Position numbers and translations under genes: made by a program. Source: Bacteroides sp. (GTDB lineage Bacteria > Bacteroidota > Bacteroidia > Bacteroidales > Bacteroidaceae). From it: a DNA stretch of 64,000 nucleotides. A model generated the notes under the pieces. The model was not told where the DNA came from. It saw nothing but the letters and a program-made list of their open reading frames with translations, and did no database searches. This document shows positions 41,809 through 49,069 of the stretch, piece by piece. The stretch covers positions 1 through 64,000 of the forward strand of contig JAFUNS010000017.1 in assembly GCA_017472925.1 (NCBI GenBank), given 5' to 3'. Numbering within the stretch: position 1 is the first letter of the stretch; each line of letters opens with the position of its first letter.

Positions 41809-42750
41809 TTATCTTTCAGCTCTCATTGGATTATTCAAAAAATCATTGTATGCCAATTGGATACCTTCTTTTAATTCAGTTTTATATTTCCATCCTAACT
41901 TTTCTGCTTTGCTGACATCAAGTAGTTTCCGCGGGGTTCCGTTGGGCTTGGACGTATCCCATAGAATTTTTCCTTGATAGCCCACAACTTGTGCCACCAT
42001 TTCTGTCAGTTCCTTGATGCTCAGTTCCTTTCCTGTACCGGCATTCACCGTTTCATCTCCGCTATAGTGATTCATCAGGAATACGCATAAATTGGCGAGG
42101 TCGTCTACGTACAGGAATTCGCGTAATGGGCTACCGTCTCCCCAGCAGGTAACGGTATCCAATCCTTGTTCCTTGGCTTCATGGAAGCGACGGATGAGGG
42201 CCGGAAGCACATGGCTGTGGGTAGGGTGGTAGTTGTCATTCGGTCCATAGAGGTTAGTCGGCATGACACTGATGTAGTCAGTACCGTATTGCTTGTTCAG
42301 GAACTCACAATATTTCAATCCGGAAATCTTGGCCAAGGCATACGCTTCATTAGTCTTTTCCAATTCGCCGGTAAGTAAGCAACTTTCGGGCATGGGTTGG
42401 GGAGCCAAGCGAGGATAGATACAGCTTGATCCTAAAAACAAAAGTTTCTTGCATCCGTTTTTCCAGGCTTCGTGAATGACATTCATCTCGAGCATCATGT
42501 TATCGTACATGAAGTCGGCCAATGCACTTTGGTTAGCTATGATGCCACCAACTTTTGCTGCAGCAAGGAATACATATTCAGGCTTTTCTTCTTGAAAAAA
42601 ACGTTCTACAGCTTCTTGTCGGCAAAGGTCGAGTTCGCTATGAGTACGGGTAATAATGTGGGTATATCCCTGTCGTTCCAATTCACGAATAATGGCAGAA
42701 CCTACCATTCCTCGGTGTCCTGCCACATAAATTTTAGCGTCTTTGTTCAT
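41809..42750 (-). CDS. fcl: GDP-L-fucose synthase
   Basis: 313 aa SDR-type epimerase/reductase. It turns GDP-4-keto-6-deoxymannose into GDP-L-fucose using NADPH. The Rossmann motif is [30 protein letters not shown] carries the catalytic serine/cysteine and YALAKISG the YxxxK pair. It lies 5 nt after gmd and completes the GDP-fucose pathway. Bacteroides also use GDP-fucose for protein O-glycosylation and capsule. Confidence 0.96.
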
Positions 42751-42755
42751 CGTTA

Positions 42756-43841
42756 TTATTCCTTATCCAATTGTGCTTTTAGGTGAAGTTTCTTCACAAA
42801 ACGCATATCGTGTTCAACCATGATGTGTACCAATTCAGGGAAAGAAGTCTTTTGGGGATTCCATCCCAATAAGGTCTTTGCTTTGGTTGGGTCACCCAAT
42901 AATTGATCGACTTCACACGGGCGGAAATATTTGGGGTCTACTTCTACTAAAACTCTGTTTGTAGCTGTGTCAATACCCTTTTCGTTCACACCTTCACCTT
43001 CCCATCGTAGTTCAATGCCCACTTCCTTGAAAGCTAAGGTAGCGAATTCGCGTACGGTGTGGTATTCACCAGTGGCAATGACAAAATCTTCAGGAGTCTC
43101 GTGCTGAAGAATCAACCACATACATTCTACATAATCTTTGGCGTATCCCCAATCGCGTAAAGAATCCAAATTTCCTAAATACAATTTATCTTGATAACCT
43201 TGTGCAATACGGGCTGCAGCTAATGTAATCTTACGGGTAACAAATGTTTCACCACGGCGTTCACTCTCGTGATTAAAAAGAATTCCGTTTACCGCAAACA
43301 TTCCATAACTTTCACGATAGTTCTTGGTAATCCAGAAACCATATTGCTTAGCTACACCATATGGAGAACGGGGGTAGAAGGGGGTTGTCTCTTTTTGAGG
43401 AACTTCCTGTACCTTTCCATATAATTCAGAAGTCGAAGCTTGATAGATACGGCAAGTCTTTTCTAATCCACATATTCGAACAGCTTCTAACAATCTGAGT
43501 GTACCAACTGCATCAGCTTCTGCTGTATATTCGGGTACATCGAAACTAACTTTAACGTGGCTTTGTGCAGCCAAGTTATATATTTCAGTCGGATGGATAT
43601 CACTGATGATACGAATAAGAGAACTACTATCAGTCATGTCTCCCCAGTGGAGATTGACCAAGCGACTCTTTTTCATATCCCGTACCCATTCATCCAAATA
43701 TAAGTGTTCAATACGAGCTGTATTGAATGATGAGGATCGGCGAAGTATGCCATGTACTTCATATCCTTTCTCAATTAAAAATTCGGCTAAAAATGAGCCG
43801 TCTTGTCCGGTTATACCGGTAATTAACGCTACTTTTCTCAT
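42756..43841 (-). CDS. gmd: GDP-mannose 4,6-dehydratase
   Basis: 361 aa from the ATG at 43841 ([16 protein letters not shown]). It forms GDP-4-keto-6-deoxymannose. [42 protein letters not shown] (YxxxK) and [15 protein letters not shown] are diagnostic. An upstream ATG at 43868 would add nine unconserved residues and overlaps a possible -7 box (TAAATTTG, 43873-43866). That box could provide an internal promoter for gmd-fcl within the export operon. Confidence 0.95.
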
Positions 43842-43885
43842 ATAATATATTAATTGTTGAATTTTCAAATTTAAGCTCGTTTGTT

Positions 43886-45025
43886 CTATTCTGAGATTTC
43901 TTTGGGTTGTACTTTCAATTCATTTTTAATCTTTCCCCACATGTCTTTTCCAAAAAGAATCCATGCTGAAGTTGCTGCTATAGCTAAAAAAATTATACCT
44001 ATTAATATTATTTTTCTACTTGTTCCTGATGGGAGTAATGGTACTGTAGGAGGTTCTACTACTGCAAAAGCAGGCTTTGCTTCTTGAACTTTAGCTCTAG
44101 CTAATTGAAGTTGTGTTGCTACATTACTATATACTTGATATGCTAAATTCATTTCATTTTGTAGTCGCTCACGTTCTGTTAATACACTTTGTAGGACAAC
44201 ATTTTTATTAGCATCTACATAGTTAGCATATGCTTGTTGTGCAGTATAATAATCAGATTGTCTTTCGTTATATATTTGCTCCCAATATTTGCAGTCATTC
44301 TCAGCTTTATTGGTGCGGTAGCTGGTGACACGTTCTTGTAGTTTCACAACAACTGTATCTGCTATAATTGCACATATTAAAGGGTCTTGCATAGTAGTTG
44401 TAATAGTAGTAACACCTGTCTTTTTATCTACATTTGCTATAATTACTTTTTTAAGTCCTCCTATAACTTGGGATTGTTCCTTTGATAAATGGAAAGAGTT
44501 AATAAATGTTGGATCTTGATTATTTTCATCATCGTTTGATGAAAATAATTTACTGACAAATCCAATAACCTTAAATGGTATAGAAATAATTGAACCTATT
44601 AATGACTGTTTTTGATATTCGTTAAGATAACCAATTAGTGTGGTGTCAGGAATATCTTCATCAATAGATTTTACAGGTGTATCTAGCAAGTCGATAATAA
44701 ATGGAGTAGATGAAACCACATCAGGATATAACATTACACTTAATGCATCAGCATCATTGCCCATATTTAAACCTCCTACACCTAACATAGATGCAATACC
44801 TCCTAAACTACTAGAACCTTTTGAGGATTCAGGAGCAAGTGTAACACTTACCGTATAAACTTTAGGAGTAGTAAATGCTATTATTATTCCTACTATTGCT
44901 GCTATTCCTGCTACTTTCAACAATAATTTTCTAGCTGCCCAAAGTTTACGTGCATATTCCATTAAGTCAATCTCTAATTCCTCTTCAACTTGAGAAGGAA
45001 CTGTATAATTTTTATTTTCTACCAT
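43886..45025 (-). CDS. Wzz-type polysaccharide chain-length/co-polymerase protein
   Basis: 379 aa inner-membrane protein. There are transmembrane helices near each end (about 35-52 and 343-362), an N-terminal Wzz domain after [20 protein letters not shown], and a long periplasmic coiled coil (about 255-330). The proline-rich [13 protein letters not shown] before the second helix is typical. No tyrosine-kinase domain is attached. It should regulate chain length or couple polymerisation to the outer-membrane exporter encoded just upstream (6 nt gap). Confidence 0.87.
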
Positions 45026-45031
45026 TTTATT

Positions 45032-47452
45032 TTATTTTAATATGTTAGCTATACTTGCAATCATAGTGGCAAGCGATGCACTTGTTGTTGCAATACTTAA
45101 CATGTTCTGGAGTTGGAAACTGTTTTTTTGTTTAGTAGGTACAATTATCTCACAACCAGGCTCGATTAAATTACTGCTGTATCTATTGGCTTTTTTTACT
45201 TGTCCGTTCATATAAACAATAAATGCACGTTTTTTCTTAGCACTTTGACTATAATCACCAGCTTGTTCTATATAGTAACTTAATTTTTTACCTTCCACAT
45301 AACTTACAGTGTTAGGGTACATAACTTCACCGCTAATACGTACTGTATTATTATATTCAGGTACAATCAATTGATCACCTTCTCTGAGTACAATATCAGC
45401 ATTACTTCCTGGATTCTTTAATGCCGCTTCTAGATCAATTCCTACATAATATATATCACCTAATTCTAATTTTGTAATATCAATTGAATCCTTGTCAGCC
45501 GTAGTTCTTGCTATACTAAGTACTGCGTTCATACGATGGCGTTCTTCTGTATTGATTCGGCGGGATATTTTAGCTCCTTTAATATATGCATATGGAGTTA
45601 CTCCACCTGCTTTCATAACAAGATCACTTACACGTTCTGATTTATGTGTCAAAGCATATGTACCAGAATACATAACTTCCCCACTAACACCCACATTAAT
45701 CTGTTCTTGATATGCAGGACTTTTACGAACAAATATTTGATCGTAAGGTTTAAGCTCAAATCCAGGTTCACCGTCAATGACAAATCCATCTTTAAGTGAG
45801 AATGTAAACATTTCACCTATTATATCTGTAGTGGTAGTGCCTTTGCTATTTTTGATACGTCGGGAAATATCAATTCGAACAGTAGAGGCTGACTCTTTTA
45901 ATCCTCCCGCTTGAATAATAATGTCTTCTATTGTTGTATTTTCTGCATATGGGAATGAACCAGGACGAGCTACTTCACCATATACGCTGATAATCCCAAT
46001 GTCTTGCAAATCATGAATACTTGGAATATATAATATATCATTACGTTGTAAAGCAATGTCTGGAATATTACCATCCATTACTCCTTTTATATTAACAGGA
46101 ATTACTTCTAAGGTTAAGTCTTCGCGTTCGCGATGTAATACAGCACGATTCATAAAAGCATCTCCTTTGAGCCCTTCAGCTTTTTGTACTAATTGGCGTA
46201 CAGTGTTAAGTTGGCCGCTATATTGGTAAATACCAGGACGATATACAGCACCTTTAATTTCTATACGATTTTCATATCTATCAAGCATGGCACTTACACT
46301 GAGTACGTCACCATCCATTAGTTTGAATATAGAATAGTCCATATCATCTATTGTATAGATTTGATATTCACGTCCGTTTTGACGAGTCATTCTTATATTC
46401 TTAGTATAAGCATCACCTGTAAAATTACCTGCATATTCTATAAGGTTTTGTACAGTTTCACCATTTTTCATTTCATAGAACATTGGACGTTTTACGTTAC
46501 CTTGAATATCAACTAATAATTCATATGGAGGAACTATTATAACATCTCCTTCTTGAAGACGAATGTCATCCATCGTTTTACCCTTTAAAATGAAATCGTA
46601 TACATCAACGGAAGCAACTTTTTTCCCATTTCGAATTAAATTTATATTTCGTAAACTACCTAAATTACTTACACCTCCTGCACGATATAAAGCGTGAAAT
46701 ATAGTTGAGAAAGAAGATAATGCATAAGTACCTGGCATAGCTACTTCACCCATGATGTTAATTTGAATGGTGCGTATTTGACCTAAACTTAGTTTGATGT
46801 CTGATGTAGAACTATTATCATTACCTATAGAGAAAATTTTACTTAATTCTCGGCGTAAATAATTCTCAGCATCTTTTATAGTCATTCCATTTAAATAAAT
46901 TAATCCAATGGTTTCAATGTTAATATTGCCATCAGGTGAAATTATTTCGCGAATGGTTGTTTGGTTGCTTCCCCATATATCAATGATAACTTCATCTCCA
47001 GGACCTAATTTGTAATTTGCAGGAGTCGCTAAATTTTGACTAGGAGCAAATGTTAAATTGCGATTGTTGAAAATATTTCGTCCAAAAACCAAACGTGCAG
47101 CTGTTTCTGTAGCTTGTTCTGTAGGATCTGTTATGTCTGCTGTTATGGCATCCATCTCTCCTTCAACCATCATGTCAGAAACTTCTGTTGTCTGTCGCAT
47201 ACGGTTCTTAGCTATTGCACCCATGTTTGACTTGGCTGATTGTTGTTCATCATAACGCTTTTTAATACGCTCTGCCTGTACACGTGTAACACCCTTTAAT
47301 GCCAATTCATTAATAATTTGTTTTTGTGATTTACCAGCTGCACTAGCAGTTTTAACATACTCTATCACTTGCTCATCACTCATAGATTGAGCTAATATAG
47401 CTCCATTTGCAAGTAAGGCAAACAATAACAACGAAAATAGTTTTTTTATCAT
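45032..47452 (-). CDS. Wza-like polysaccharide export protein with multiple SLBB domains
   Basis: 806 aa. There is a signal peptide (about 1-21, ending ILAQ) without a lipobox cysteine. A short helical region follows, then the poly_export domain (YKLGPGDEVIIDIWGSNQTT, about 150-230), then about six SLBB repeats, each with the GEVxxPGxY pattern (GEVAMPGTYAL, GEVARPGSFPY, GEVMYSGTYAL, GEVMYPNTVSY). A hydrophobic C-terminal segment may sit in the membrane. It forms the outer-membrane export channel. It heads the operon SLBB-wzz-gmd-fcl; no glycosyltransferase, flippase or polymerase gene is included. A 231-bp IS-derived element with an outward promoter lies upstream. Confidence 0.88.
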   Translation of the reverse strand: MIKKLFSLLLFALLANGAILAQSMSDEQVIEYVKTASAAGKSQKQIINELALKGVTRVQAERIKKRYDEQQSAKSNMGAIAKNRMRQTTEVSDMMVEGEMDAITADITDPTEQATETAARLVFGRNIFNNRNLTFAPSQNLATPANYKLGPGDEVIIDIWGSNQTTIREIISPDGNINIETIGLIYLNGMTIKDAENYLRRELSKIFSIGNDNSSTSDIKLSLGQIRTIQINIMGEVAMPGTYALSSFSTIFHALYRAGGVSNLGSLRNINLIRNGKKVASVDVYDFILKGKTMDDIRLQEGDVIIVPPYELLVDIQGNVKRPMFYEMKNGETVQNLIEYAGNFTGDAYTKNIRMTRQNGREYQIYTIDDMDYSIFKLMDGDVLSVSAMLDRYENRIEIKGAVYRPGIYQYSGQLNTVRQLVQKAEGLKGDAFMNRAVLHREREDLTLEVIPVNIKGVMDGNIPDIALQRNDILYIPSIHDLQDIGIISVYGEVARPGSFPYAENTTIEDIIIQAGGLKESASTVRIDISRRIKNSKGTTTTDIIGEMFTFSLKDGFVIDGEPGFELKPYDQIFVRKSPAYQEQINVGVSGEVMYSGTYALTHKSERVSDLVMKAGGVTPYAYIKGAKISRRINTEERHRMNAVLSIARTTADKDSIDITKLELGDIYYVGIDLEAALKNPGSNADIVLREGDQLIVPEYNNTVRISGEVMYPNTVSYVEGKKLSYYIEQAGDYSQSAKKKRAFIVYMNGQVKKANRYSSNLIEPGCEIIVPTKQKNSFQLQNMLSIATTSASLATMIASIANILK

Positions 47453-47499
47453 ATTCCCAATACTTTTATTAATTTTCGATTTAATTCTTTTATAGCTTA

Positions 47500-47507
47500 C
47501 AAAGTTA
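47500..47507 (-). promoter_or_regulatory. -7 box proximal to the export operon
   Basis: TAACTTTG on the minus strand, 47 nt before the ATG; no matching -33 box is seen. Confidence 0.45.
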
Positions 47508-47608
47508 CGAATTTAAAATGAATTGTTAGATATAAAACATACGTTTTTTAGGTTGTCTTTTATTATTATATATAAATACACAGTAGTGTCCACTAAAAAA
47601 GTGGACGA

Positions 47609-47701
47609 TTAAAAATTAAATAAACTTGGTTCACTAGAACCGAATCGTTCATTGACATTGTTGATATCTAATTGAGCGAAAACGTATTTGTCTTTATTCA
47701 T
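47609..47701 (-). pseudogene. Internally deleted transposase remnant (30 codons)
   Basis: ATG at 47701, stop at 47609. The product begins MNKDKYVFAQL, the N-terminus typical of IS4-family DUF4372 transposases, and ends NERFGSSEPSLFNF, which resembles their C-terminus. About 350 codons are missing between them, joined in frame. It may be translated as a 30-residue peptide, but it lacks any catalytic domain. Confidence 0.75.
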
Positions 47702-47720
47702 AACGCTCTGATTATGACCG

Positions 47721-47751
47721 CAAAAGTAATTTCAAATCGTTGCGCATCAAA
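47721..47751 (-). promoter_or_regulatory. Transposase promoter inside the MITE, facing the export operon
   Basis: Minus-strand TTTG (47751-47748), 19 nt, TACTTTTG (47728-47721), starting RNA near 47715. No terminator is seen between it and the SLBB gene at 47452, so it could drive that operon. Confidence 0.6.
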
Positions 47752-47931
47752 AAACTTCGTAACAAATTAAATATCAATCATTTCAAAGAACTATTTCGAT
47801 TTTTTAGTGGACACTTATGATAAATACATAGTTTTATATTTTGTAATTGGACGTTTTTTGTAAAACAAGGTCTAATTGTTTAAGAGTAGCGTGGTTATAT
47901 GGTACTTATTGTGATTTATTCATTGAAATTC

Positions 47932-47962
47932 TTGTTTTTGTTATTTGCATTCCTTACTTTTG
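47932..47962 (+). promoter_or_regulatory. Promoter of the second histidine kinase operon
   Basis: TTG (47932-47934), 20 nt, TACTTTTG (47955-47962), 63 nt before the ATG. Confidence 0.6.
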
Positions 47963-48025
47963 CCAATAGTTAAACTATAAACCTTAAATGTAACTTTAAA
48001 CTATTTATTGTTTGGGAGGAGTTTT

Positions 48026-49069
48026 ATGGAACTCAGTTCAAAGATTGTACGGGCATTGCCTGAATTTATATTTGTCTTCAATAGAGACTTTATCTTTACG
48101 GATGTAATGAAGTCTGATTATGTGGAATTATTTCATACCCGTGAAGAATTGATTGGATCTAGCGGAAGGATGATTTATTCACCGGAAGTATCAGAAATGT
48201 TCATTAAAAATATTCATGGTTGTTTGTCTGATGGACAATTGCGCTTAATGGAATATTCTGTAGATTTTGGTGATAAGGGAGTGCGTCACTATGAAGCACG
48301 TCTAACTCCATATGACGAGGAAAATGTTTTGGTGCTGATTCGTGATATTTGTATACAAGTGGAGAGAGAAAAGGAATTGCTTGAAGCACGAATGAAAGCT
48401 GAAGAGTCCGACCGCTTGAAATCTGAATTTTGGGCAAATATCAGTCACGAAATACGTACACCGTTAAATGCTATTGTGGGATTCTCGGAATACATTATTT
48501 CACCCGATTTTGATGAAGAAGAACGTAAAGAGTTCGCGAAAATAATAAAATTGAATAGCGAACAGCTACAAAATTTGATAAATGATGTTCTTGATTTGTC
48601 ACGTATAGAAGCTGGTAGAACTGAAATTGTGATGGCTCATGTTGAGCTGGCCGAATTGATTCGTCAGTTAGGCAGAAGTCAAGAACCTAAGCTAAATAAA
48701 GAAGTTAAACTTAATATAAATATTCCTGATGAGTTGAAGGTGGTAACCGATGCAAGTCGTGTATCCCAAATTGTTACAAACTTTTTGTCGAATGCCATAA
48801 AATATACAGAGAAGGGTGAAATATCATTGAGTATGGAACGGATTGACGAAGGTCATGTTAGTATATCTGTAAAGGATACTGGATGTGGCATTTCGGCAGC
48901 TAATTTAACCAAAGTGTTTGACCGTTTTGAGAAGATACATTCATCGAAACAAGGAACAGGATTAGGACTTTGTATTTGTAAAAATTTGGCAGACTTACTT
49001 GGTGGTGAAGTCTTTGCACATTCAACTTTAGGGGAAGGTTCAGAATTTGTGTTAATATTACCTGCATAA
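48026..49069 (+). CDS. Cytosolic PAS-type histidine kinase
   Basis: 347 aa from the ATG at 48026, chosen over a TTG at 48008 because GGGAGGAG (48014-48021) is a good ribosome-binding site for it. Residues 1-110 form a PAS-like sensor (LPEFIFVFNRDFIFTDV). HisKA has H141 in ANISHEIRTPLNAIVGFS, and HATPase_c shows NFLSNAIKYTEKG, DTGCGISAAN and GTGLGLCICKN. No transmembrane segment or receiver domain is present, and no response regulator is adjacent. Its stop directly abuts the ATG of the RluA-family gene, so the two are co-expressed. Confidence 0.87.
   Translation: MELSSKIVRALPEFIFVFNRDFIFTDVMKSDYVELFHTREELIGSSGRMIYSPEVSEMFIKNIHGCLSDGQLRLMEYSVDFGDKGVRHYEARLTPYDEENVLVLIRDICIQVEREKELLEARMKAEESDRLKSEFWANISHEIRTPLNAIVGFSEYIISPDFDEEERKEFAKIIKLNSEQLQNLINDVLDLSRIEAGRTEIVMAHVELAELIRQLGRSQEPKLNKEVKLNINIPDELKVVTDASRVSQIVTNFLSNAIKYTEKGEISLSMERIDEGHVSISVKDTGCGISAANLTKVFDRFEKIHSSKQGTGLGLCICKNLADLLGGEVFAHSTLGEGSEFVLILPA

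Follow-up and report, generated by a model that had tools for sequence, protein, structure and literature searches.

MITEs in general are short, end in terminal inverted repeats, lack a transposase and are accompanied by a target duplication. The element described here, found in a 64,000-nucleotide stretch of Bacteroides DNA (the window), is likened to MITEs by these general features: it is short, has terminal inverted repeats and a target duplication, and is without a transposase. It differs from them in that the sequence available holds one copy only, with no evidence of spread. An example of a MITE is MITE1, which the excerpted text of PMC9138018 assigns to the Bacteroides fragilis cfiA element. 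The IS4Sa subgroup is characterized in Table 1 of PMC2266710, as excerpted, by the YREK motif, CA------T ends, duplications of 8-10 bp and lengths of 1150-1750 bp. The full-length parent of our element resembles IS4Sa in its Y..R...E......K motif, its CA(C/T)(T/A)AGTGT ends, its 9-bp duplication and its length of 1310 bp, a likeness drawn from motif, ends, size and duplication rather than from transposase clustering; the window copy itself differs from IS4Sa in having no transposase.

Insertion sequences that activate neighbouring genes are described in Bacteroides, among them IS614 and the ISs upstream of cfiA (PMC7260799, PMC9330008 and PMC9138018, as excerpted). In Bacteroides caccae, the available part of PMC7260799 reports four IS614 insertions with a promoter in sense to the next gene, the expression of which rose 3- to 8-fold relative to the upstream neighbour. 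What our element has in common with these ISs, so far as the excerpts describe them, is an IS-borne promoter, here a motif, aimed at a neighbouring gene. The putative outward promoter of IS614, according to the same excerpts, lies antisense to its transposase and near its 5' end, whereas in our element it is the predicted transposase promoter itself that points outward, the internal deletion brings this promoter near the far end, and 3' hairpins stand between it and the neighbouring operon.

The element and its full-length parent

The first-pass annotation had placed an IS4-type deletion derivative of 231 bp at 47585..47815, between perfect 16-bp inverted repeats. The perfect repeats stand (47585-47600 and 47800-47815, with 199 nt between them), but the extent does not: the true ends lie four bases further out on each side, at 47581 and 47819, because the termini of relatives and the 9-bp target duplications place them there (Table 1). 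The full 20-bp repeats are imperfect, consisting of CAGT/CATA plus the 16 perfect positions. The ATAAATACA duplication around the element matches at 9/9 positions, for which the chance at a fixed place is about 6e-5 given the local base composition, and a 9/9 duplication, in line with the roughly 10 bp typical of the IS4 family, was also found in all 8/8 full-length-type copies for which the flanks on the two sides could be read; two of these copies are divided between contigs. The duplication script took nine relatives, and in five one-piece full-length copies of 1310-1327 bp (L010, L011, L012, L015 and L085) the ends are of the CANTAGTGTCC type and are flanked by perfect 9-bp duplications. 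The 5' end of L084 deviates from this pattern, so that the script returned no row for it; the flanks of L084, read by hand, carry TTTTACAAA on both sides. A perfect duplication was absent from three shortened copies, which match at 3, 5 and 6 of 9 positions, respectively: a 905-bp copy in G010, an 87-bp copy in G034 and a 1177-bp copy in a Parabacteroides plasmid.

Table 1. Features of the element and its surroundings in the window
Feature	Position	Strand	Basis or remark
IS4-family (DUF4372/DDE) internal-deletion derivative, 239 bp	47581..47819	- (transposase sense)	Matches to full-length copies; target duplications of relatives
Left terminal inverted repeat CAGTAGTGTCCACTAAAAAA (transposase 3' end)	47581..47600	+	
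Right terminal inverted repeat CATAAGTGTCCACTAAAAAA (transposase 5' end)	47800..47819	-	
9-bp target duplication ATAAATACA, left copy	47572..47580	.	
9-bp target duplication ATAAATACA, right copy	47820..47828	.	
Transposase promoter motif: -33 TTTG (47751-47748), 19-nt spacer, -7 TACTTTTG (47728-47721)	47721..47751	-	
Deletion junction CAATTAG / ATATCAAC (transposase sense)	47667..47668	.	No evident microhomology
In-frame remnant of 30 codons: 11 N-terminal, 1 junction and 18 C-terminal transposase codons	47609..47701	-	
Terminator-like hairpin GGTTC-TAGT-GAACC, then T-rich tail	47628..47641	-	
Terminal hairpin GTCCACT...AGTGGAC: left inverted repeat and adjacent reversed arm	47588..47606	-	
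Candidate -7 box native to the SLBB operon, TAACTTTG	47500..47507	-	Aligned TATCTTTG in G031
First operon gene, for a polysaccharide export protein (SLBB/Poly_export)	45032..47452	-	PF02563, PF10531, PF22461
wzz-like, gmd-like and fcl-like genes, further downstream within the presumed operon	41809..45025	-	PF02706; PF16363; PF01370
PAS-HisKA-HATPase histidine kinase gene, divergent, other side of the element	48035..49069	+	

A full-length parent is present in the same genome (G000), on contig C8, as an IS of 1310 bp with an open transposase frame of 387 codons. This transposase has the DUF4372 (PF14294) and DDE (PF01609) domains, scores 249.9 bits against the NCBIfam IS4 model NF033592 (cut-off 115) and shows the YREK spacing Y-(2)-R-(3)-E-(6)-K as YRNRWSVELFFKWLK, while the ends of the IS, CACTAGTGT and CATAAGTGT, together with its length, fit the ends and size of IS4Sa. 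This IS copy spans the end of C8 and the start of contig C44, which overlap by 141 exact bases, and its flanks give the 9-bp duplication ACTTAATAT. By a same-genome search both halves of the element were found at the two ends of the longer C8 IS with 91-92% identity, and the 16-bp repeats of the element are identical to those of the full-length IS. Cut at the junction, the 5' part of the element (152 nt) is identical to the C8 copy in 142/154 aligned columns, to a fragment in G029 that covers this part in 149/152 and to a copy in G036, another species of the genus, in 140/141; the 3' part (87 nt), which alone barely tells the last from C8, gives 85/87 for C8 and 86/87 for G036. Both parts are 92-99% identical to full-length copies. 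The G036 copy, closer than C8, is likewise split over two contigs and has the duplication GTTTAACCT on both sides. A search for a full-length IS with these ends, the check that had been proposed for the annotation, was thus run without refuting it, and the reading as a deletion derivative of a DUF4372/IS4-type IS is borne out by the parent in the same genome. The identity and parentage of the element are firm. A PDB sequence search with the transposase returned 0 matches, and literature searches returned no paper pairing DUF4372 with a transposase and none linking an IS4 insertion sequence and its promoter to polysaccharide in Phocaeicola.

Relative to C8, the element lacks 1071 nt, a multiple of three, and past the junction the sequence of the parents diverges from that of the element on each side. 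A 30-codon minus-strand ORF joining the two ends of the transposase in frame had been annotated, and it is there (47701-47609). We reject any importance of this ORF, as searches of Pfam and NCBIfam at E 0.001 matched it to nothing and an in-frame junction has a one-in-three chance; the in-frame join requires nothing beyond chance. Deletion in place and deletion before insertion both fit the sequence of this genome.

Several related copies were seen in passing. The 87-bp derivative (L018, G034:C33:28793-28879) belongs to the same IS group, and its left end is palindrome-like over 33 bp. The 905-bp related IS (L014, G010:C23) has lost the first of the two 3' hairpins described below. L083 (NZ_OY725889.1) is a 1318-bp circular record, catalogued as a Bacteroides finegoldii plasmid, with one annotated gene, an IS4-family transposase; it carries IS ends of this group and resembles either a circle formed by IS excision or an artefact of assembly. 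A Parabacteroides distasonis plasmid carries a related IS copy (L086, near position 1759) whose end immediately precedes a DMT-family transporter gene.

Copy number and the question of a MITE

The joined 239-bp form is present in one copy in G000 and was absent from the other 60 genus genomes in a DNA search in which at most 12 candidates were scored per genome; among the candidates scored, some match to parts of the element was found in 27/61 genus genomes. When exact 13-bp inner repeats 171-231 nt apart were sought, with no mismatch allowed, the window copy stood alone among 301 family genomes, an even sample with about 20 of the genus, and the viral collection gave 0 matches to exact inner repeats at a gap of 186-216. 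With a shorter gap range of 10-70 nt, only G034 was recovered among the 61 genus genomes. Plasmid and phage records contained partial matches only, 31 plasmid and 1 phage, none of which covers 80% of the query. The assembly of G000 is 79.7% complete and in pieces and the genome sets contain one genome per species, and therefore there is room for unseen copies.

The name MITE, which the first-pass annotation had used, fits loosely. Short length, terminal inverted repeats, target duplication and the missing transposase agree with it; multiple dispersed copies do not, the 239-bp form having turned up a single time in the home genome and in none of the others searched. In the available sequence the element is a single deletion derivative and not a spread MITE. 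The element makes no transposase, and the full-length transposase encoded elsewhere in the genome could in principle move it in trans, a movement that is conceivable because the 16-bp repeats of the two are identical; we infer such mobility from these repeats, and no spread of the element was seen in the genomes searched. A true MITE that moves in trans as a 239-bp unit, and is single-copy in this assembly by chance, is the best of the alternatives and still rather unlikely. Its repeats are complete, a full-length transposase with identical repeats is at hand, and its target duplication is perfect where those of the three other shortened copies are not, but neither the 301 family genomes, searched with exact 13-bp inner repeats, nor the 61 genus genomes yielded a second copy.

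Promoter motif, 3' hairpins and the neighbouring operon

A -33/-7 promoter of preserved spacing, aimed at the SLBB-wzz-gmd-fcl operon about 260 bp away, had been annotated on the minus strand, and our analysis confirms it as a motif: an outward promoter motif directed at the neighbouring gene is present. The names gmd and fcl come from that annotation and from domain content. Of 2000 versions of the element shuffled by dinucleotides, 13 contained the pattern TTTG-N19..21-TAnnTTTG. Among aligned IS 5' ends, 12/14 have the -7 box TAnnTTTG, a count that covers the -7 box, includes the window copy and contains some rows that are alike or from one genome; the box is also found in 4/4 plasmid-borne relatives. 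The two 5' ends without it are L013, in which the box is changed, and L018, which lacks it because this 87-bp derivative lost the region. Judged by its position, the minus-strand motif is the transposase promoter of the IS, and its -33/-7 type matches the Bacteroides consensus as given in the excerpts of PMC7366714 and PMC9330008. The predicted RNA start lies near 47714, which leaves about 260 bp to the SLBB gene. An E. coli-type match, TGGACA-N16-TATAAT (11/12), runs from the inverted repeat into the host flank at 47565-47592 on the minus strand; it was rejected, since Bacteroidota use the -33/-7 type according to the excerpted PMC7366714, and is probably irrelevant there. Promoters inside the element toward the kinase gene were also rejected, as no plus-strand TAnnTTTG occurs in it.

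It had further been stated that no terminator lies between this promoter and the operon. The statement is unsupported, because the element keeps the 3' end of the IS with a terminator-like site at 47641-47628 and a second hairpin at 47606-47588. The former was the sole terminator-like site in a scan of 47400-48050 (651 bp), in which 0.1 were expected. For comparison among relatives, 14 3' ends were sought and 13 recovered (L085 was unmatched), of which 10 are distinct. The terminal hairpin forms in 10/10 distinct ends folded, has no T-run after it, and has a stem that varies with the repeat (GTCCAC/GTGGAC, TTGTCC/GGACAG, GTCCCA/TGGGAC and TGTCCGC/GTGGACA). The first hairpin is intact in 6 of the 10; of the other four, 2 have a single mismatch in it and 2 do not form it. 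Within 6 chosen ends, which omit L014 (hairpin lost), L015, L035 and L084 and include two alignment rows cut or lengthened outside the hairpin columns, 3/5 pairs are changed on both sides, and the share of cells that pair is 93%. Three covariation measures for this hairpin were reached by 1/500 shuffles, and the number of further pair types, 3 against a shuffled mean of 3.8, was equalled or exceeded by 500/500 shuffles; in a control with the partners slid by +1, two pairs were still changed on both sides, compared with three unslid. The minus-strand fold z-score is -3.15 for 47560-47660 and -3.13 for 47560-47715. The two 3' hairpins are putative terminators and could weaken RNA synthesis that leaves the element.

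The operon also appears to have a promoter of its own. A putative native -7 box is separated from the element by 73 bp and from the start codon by 47 bp, and the insertion leaves this core promoter whole. In G031, which has the same operon and divergent kinase and no element in the gap, TATCTTTG aligns at the position of the native box. A contig scan, from which records of this same genome may be missing, gave 8 loci, with 57% as the best identity, 7 of which were used for upstream promoter scans (L076 starts inside the gene): TATCTTTG is close upstream of the same gene in L074 and L075 (Phocaeicola plebeius), L077, L078, L080 and L081 have -7 boxes at other distances, and L079 has no -7 box within 400 bp upstream of the gene. 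The native -33 box is poor (2/4), and therefore the operon may depend on other input. The kinase gene is divergent to the SLBB-wzz operon both in the window and in G031; in G036 one extra gene, which resembles a dTDP-glucose dehydratase as read from its ORF alone, lies between them. From this linkage, the kinase may regulate the operon.

Possible effect of the element on the operon

We consider it likely that the locus carries an ordinary IS deletion derivative from which weakened promoter read-through would add no more than modestly to the output of the promoter that the operon itself has. A 1310-bp IS4-family element with IS4Sa-like ends would have entered the AT-rich gap between the kinase gene and the polysaccharide-export operon, or an already deleted form would have inserted there; a 9-bp target duplication would be left either way. 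The in-frame internal deletion spared the two termini, the promoter of the transposase and the hairpins at the 3' end. The element promoter should still start RNA toward the operon, and many of these transcripts would be expected to weaken at the retained hairpins, so that at most a small net gain is predicted. Read-through from the element into the operon is plausible from the arrangement of these features. The regulatory role proposed by the first-pass annotation is possible and a reasonable hypothesis, with two results contrary to it, the 3' hairpins and the native -7 box.

A stronger form of this role, in which the stripped element is the working promoter of the operon and was kept since its shortening brought that promoter within about 260 bp, seems to us improbable. 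The complete and correctly spaced motif toward the operon, the poor native -33 box and the precedent of IS614 in B. caccae (PMC7260799, as excerpted) would all suit such a promoter, but the T-tailed terminator-like hairpin and the terminal hairpin stand in its way, a native -7 box precedes the operon, and the joined form, found in a single one of the genomes searched, shows no sign of selection. We give still less credence to the proposal that the deletion made a small mobile promoter out of an IS that normally has conserved hairpins at its 3' end, a promoter by which the level of the surface-polysaccharide export operon would be set with the hairpins as an attenuator. It is also very unlikely that the element, instead of driving the operon, makes a small, stable RNA, about 90-130 nt long and composed of the transposase leader and the 3' hairpins, for although the promoter and hairpins would bound such a transcript and the two fold z-scores are in keeping with it, it has no known target and searches of other genomes did not recover the fused RNA.

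In our preferred reading, that of an ordinary deletion derivative with weakened read-through, two points bear on ISs of this kind, neither of which overturns existing knowledge. An internal deletion can offer a simple route by which the transposase promoter of an IS is brought near a host operon. A 3'-terminal hairpin that varies in step with the inverted repeat is retained by copies of this IS group, and this hairpin may limit outward transcription.
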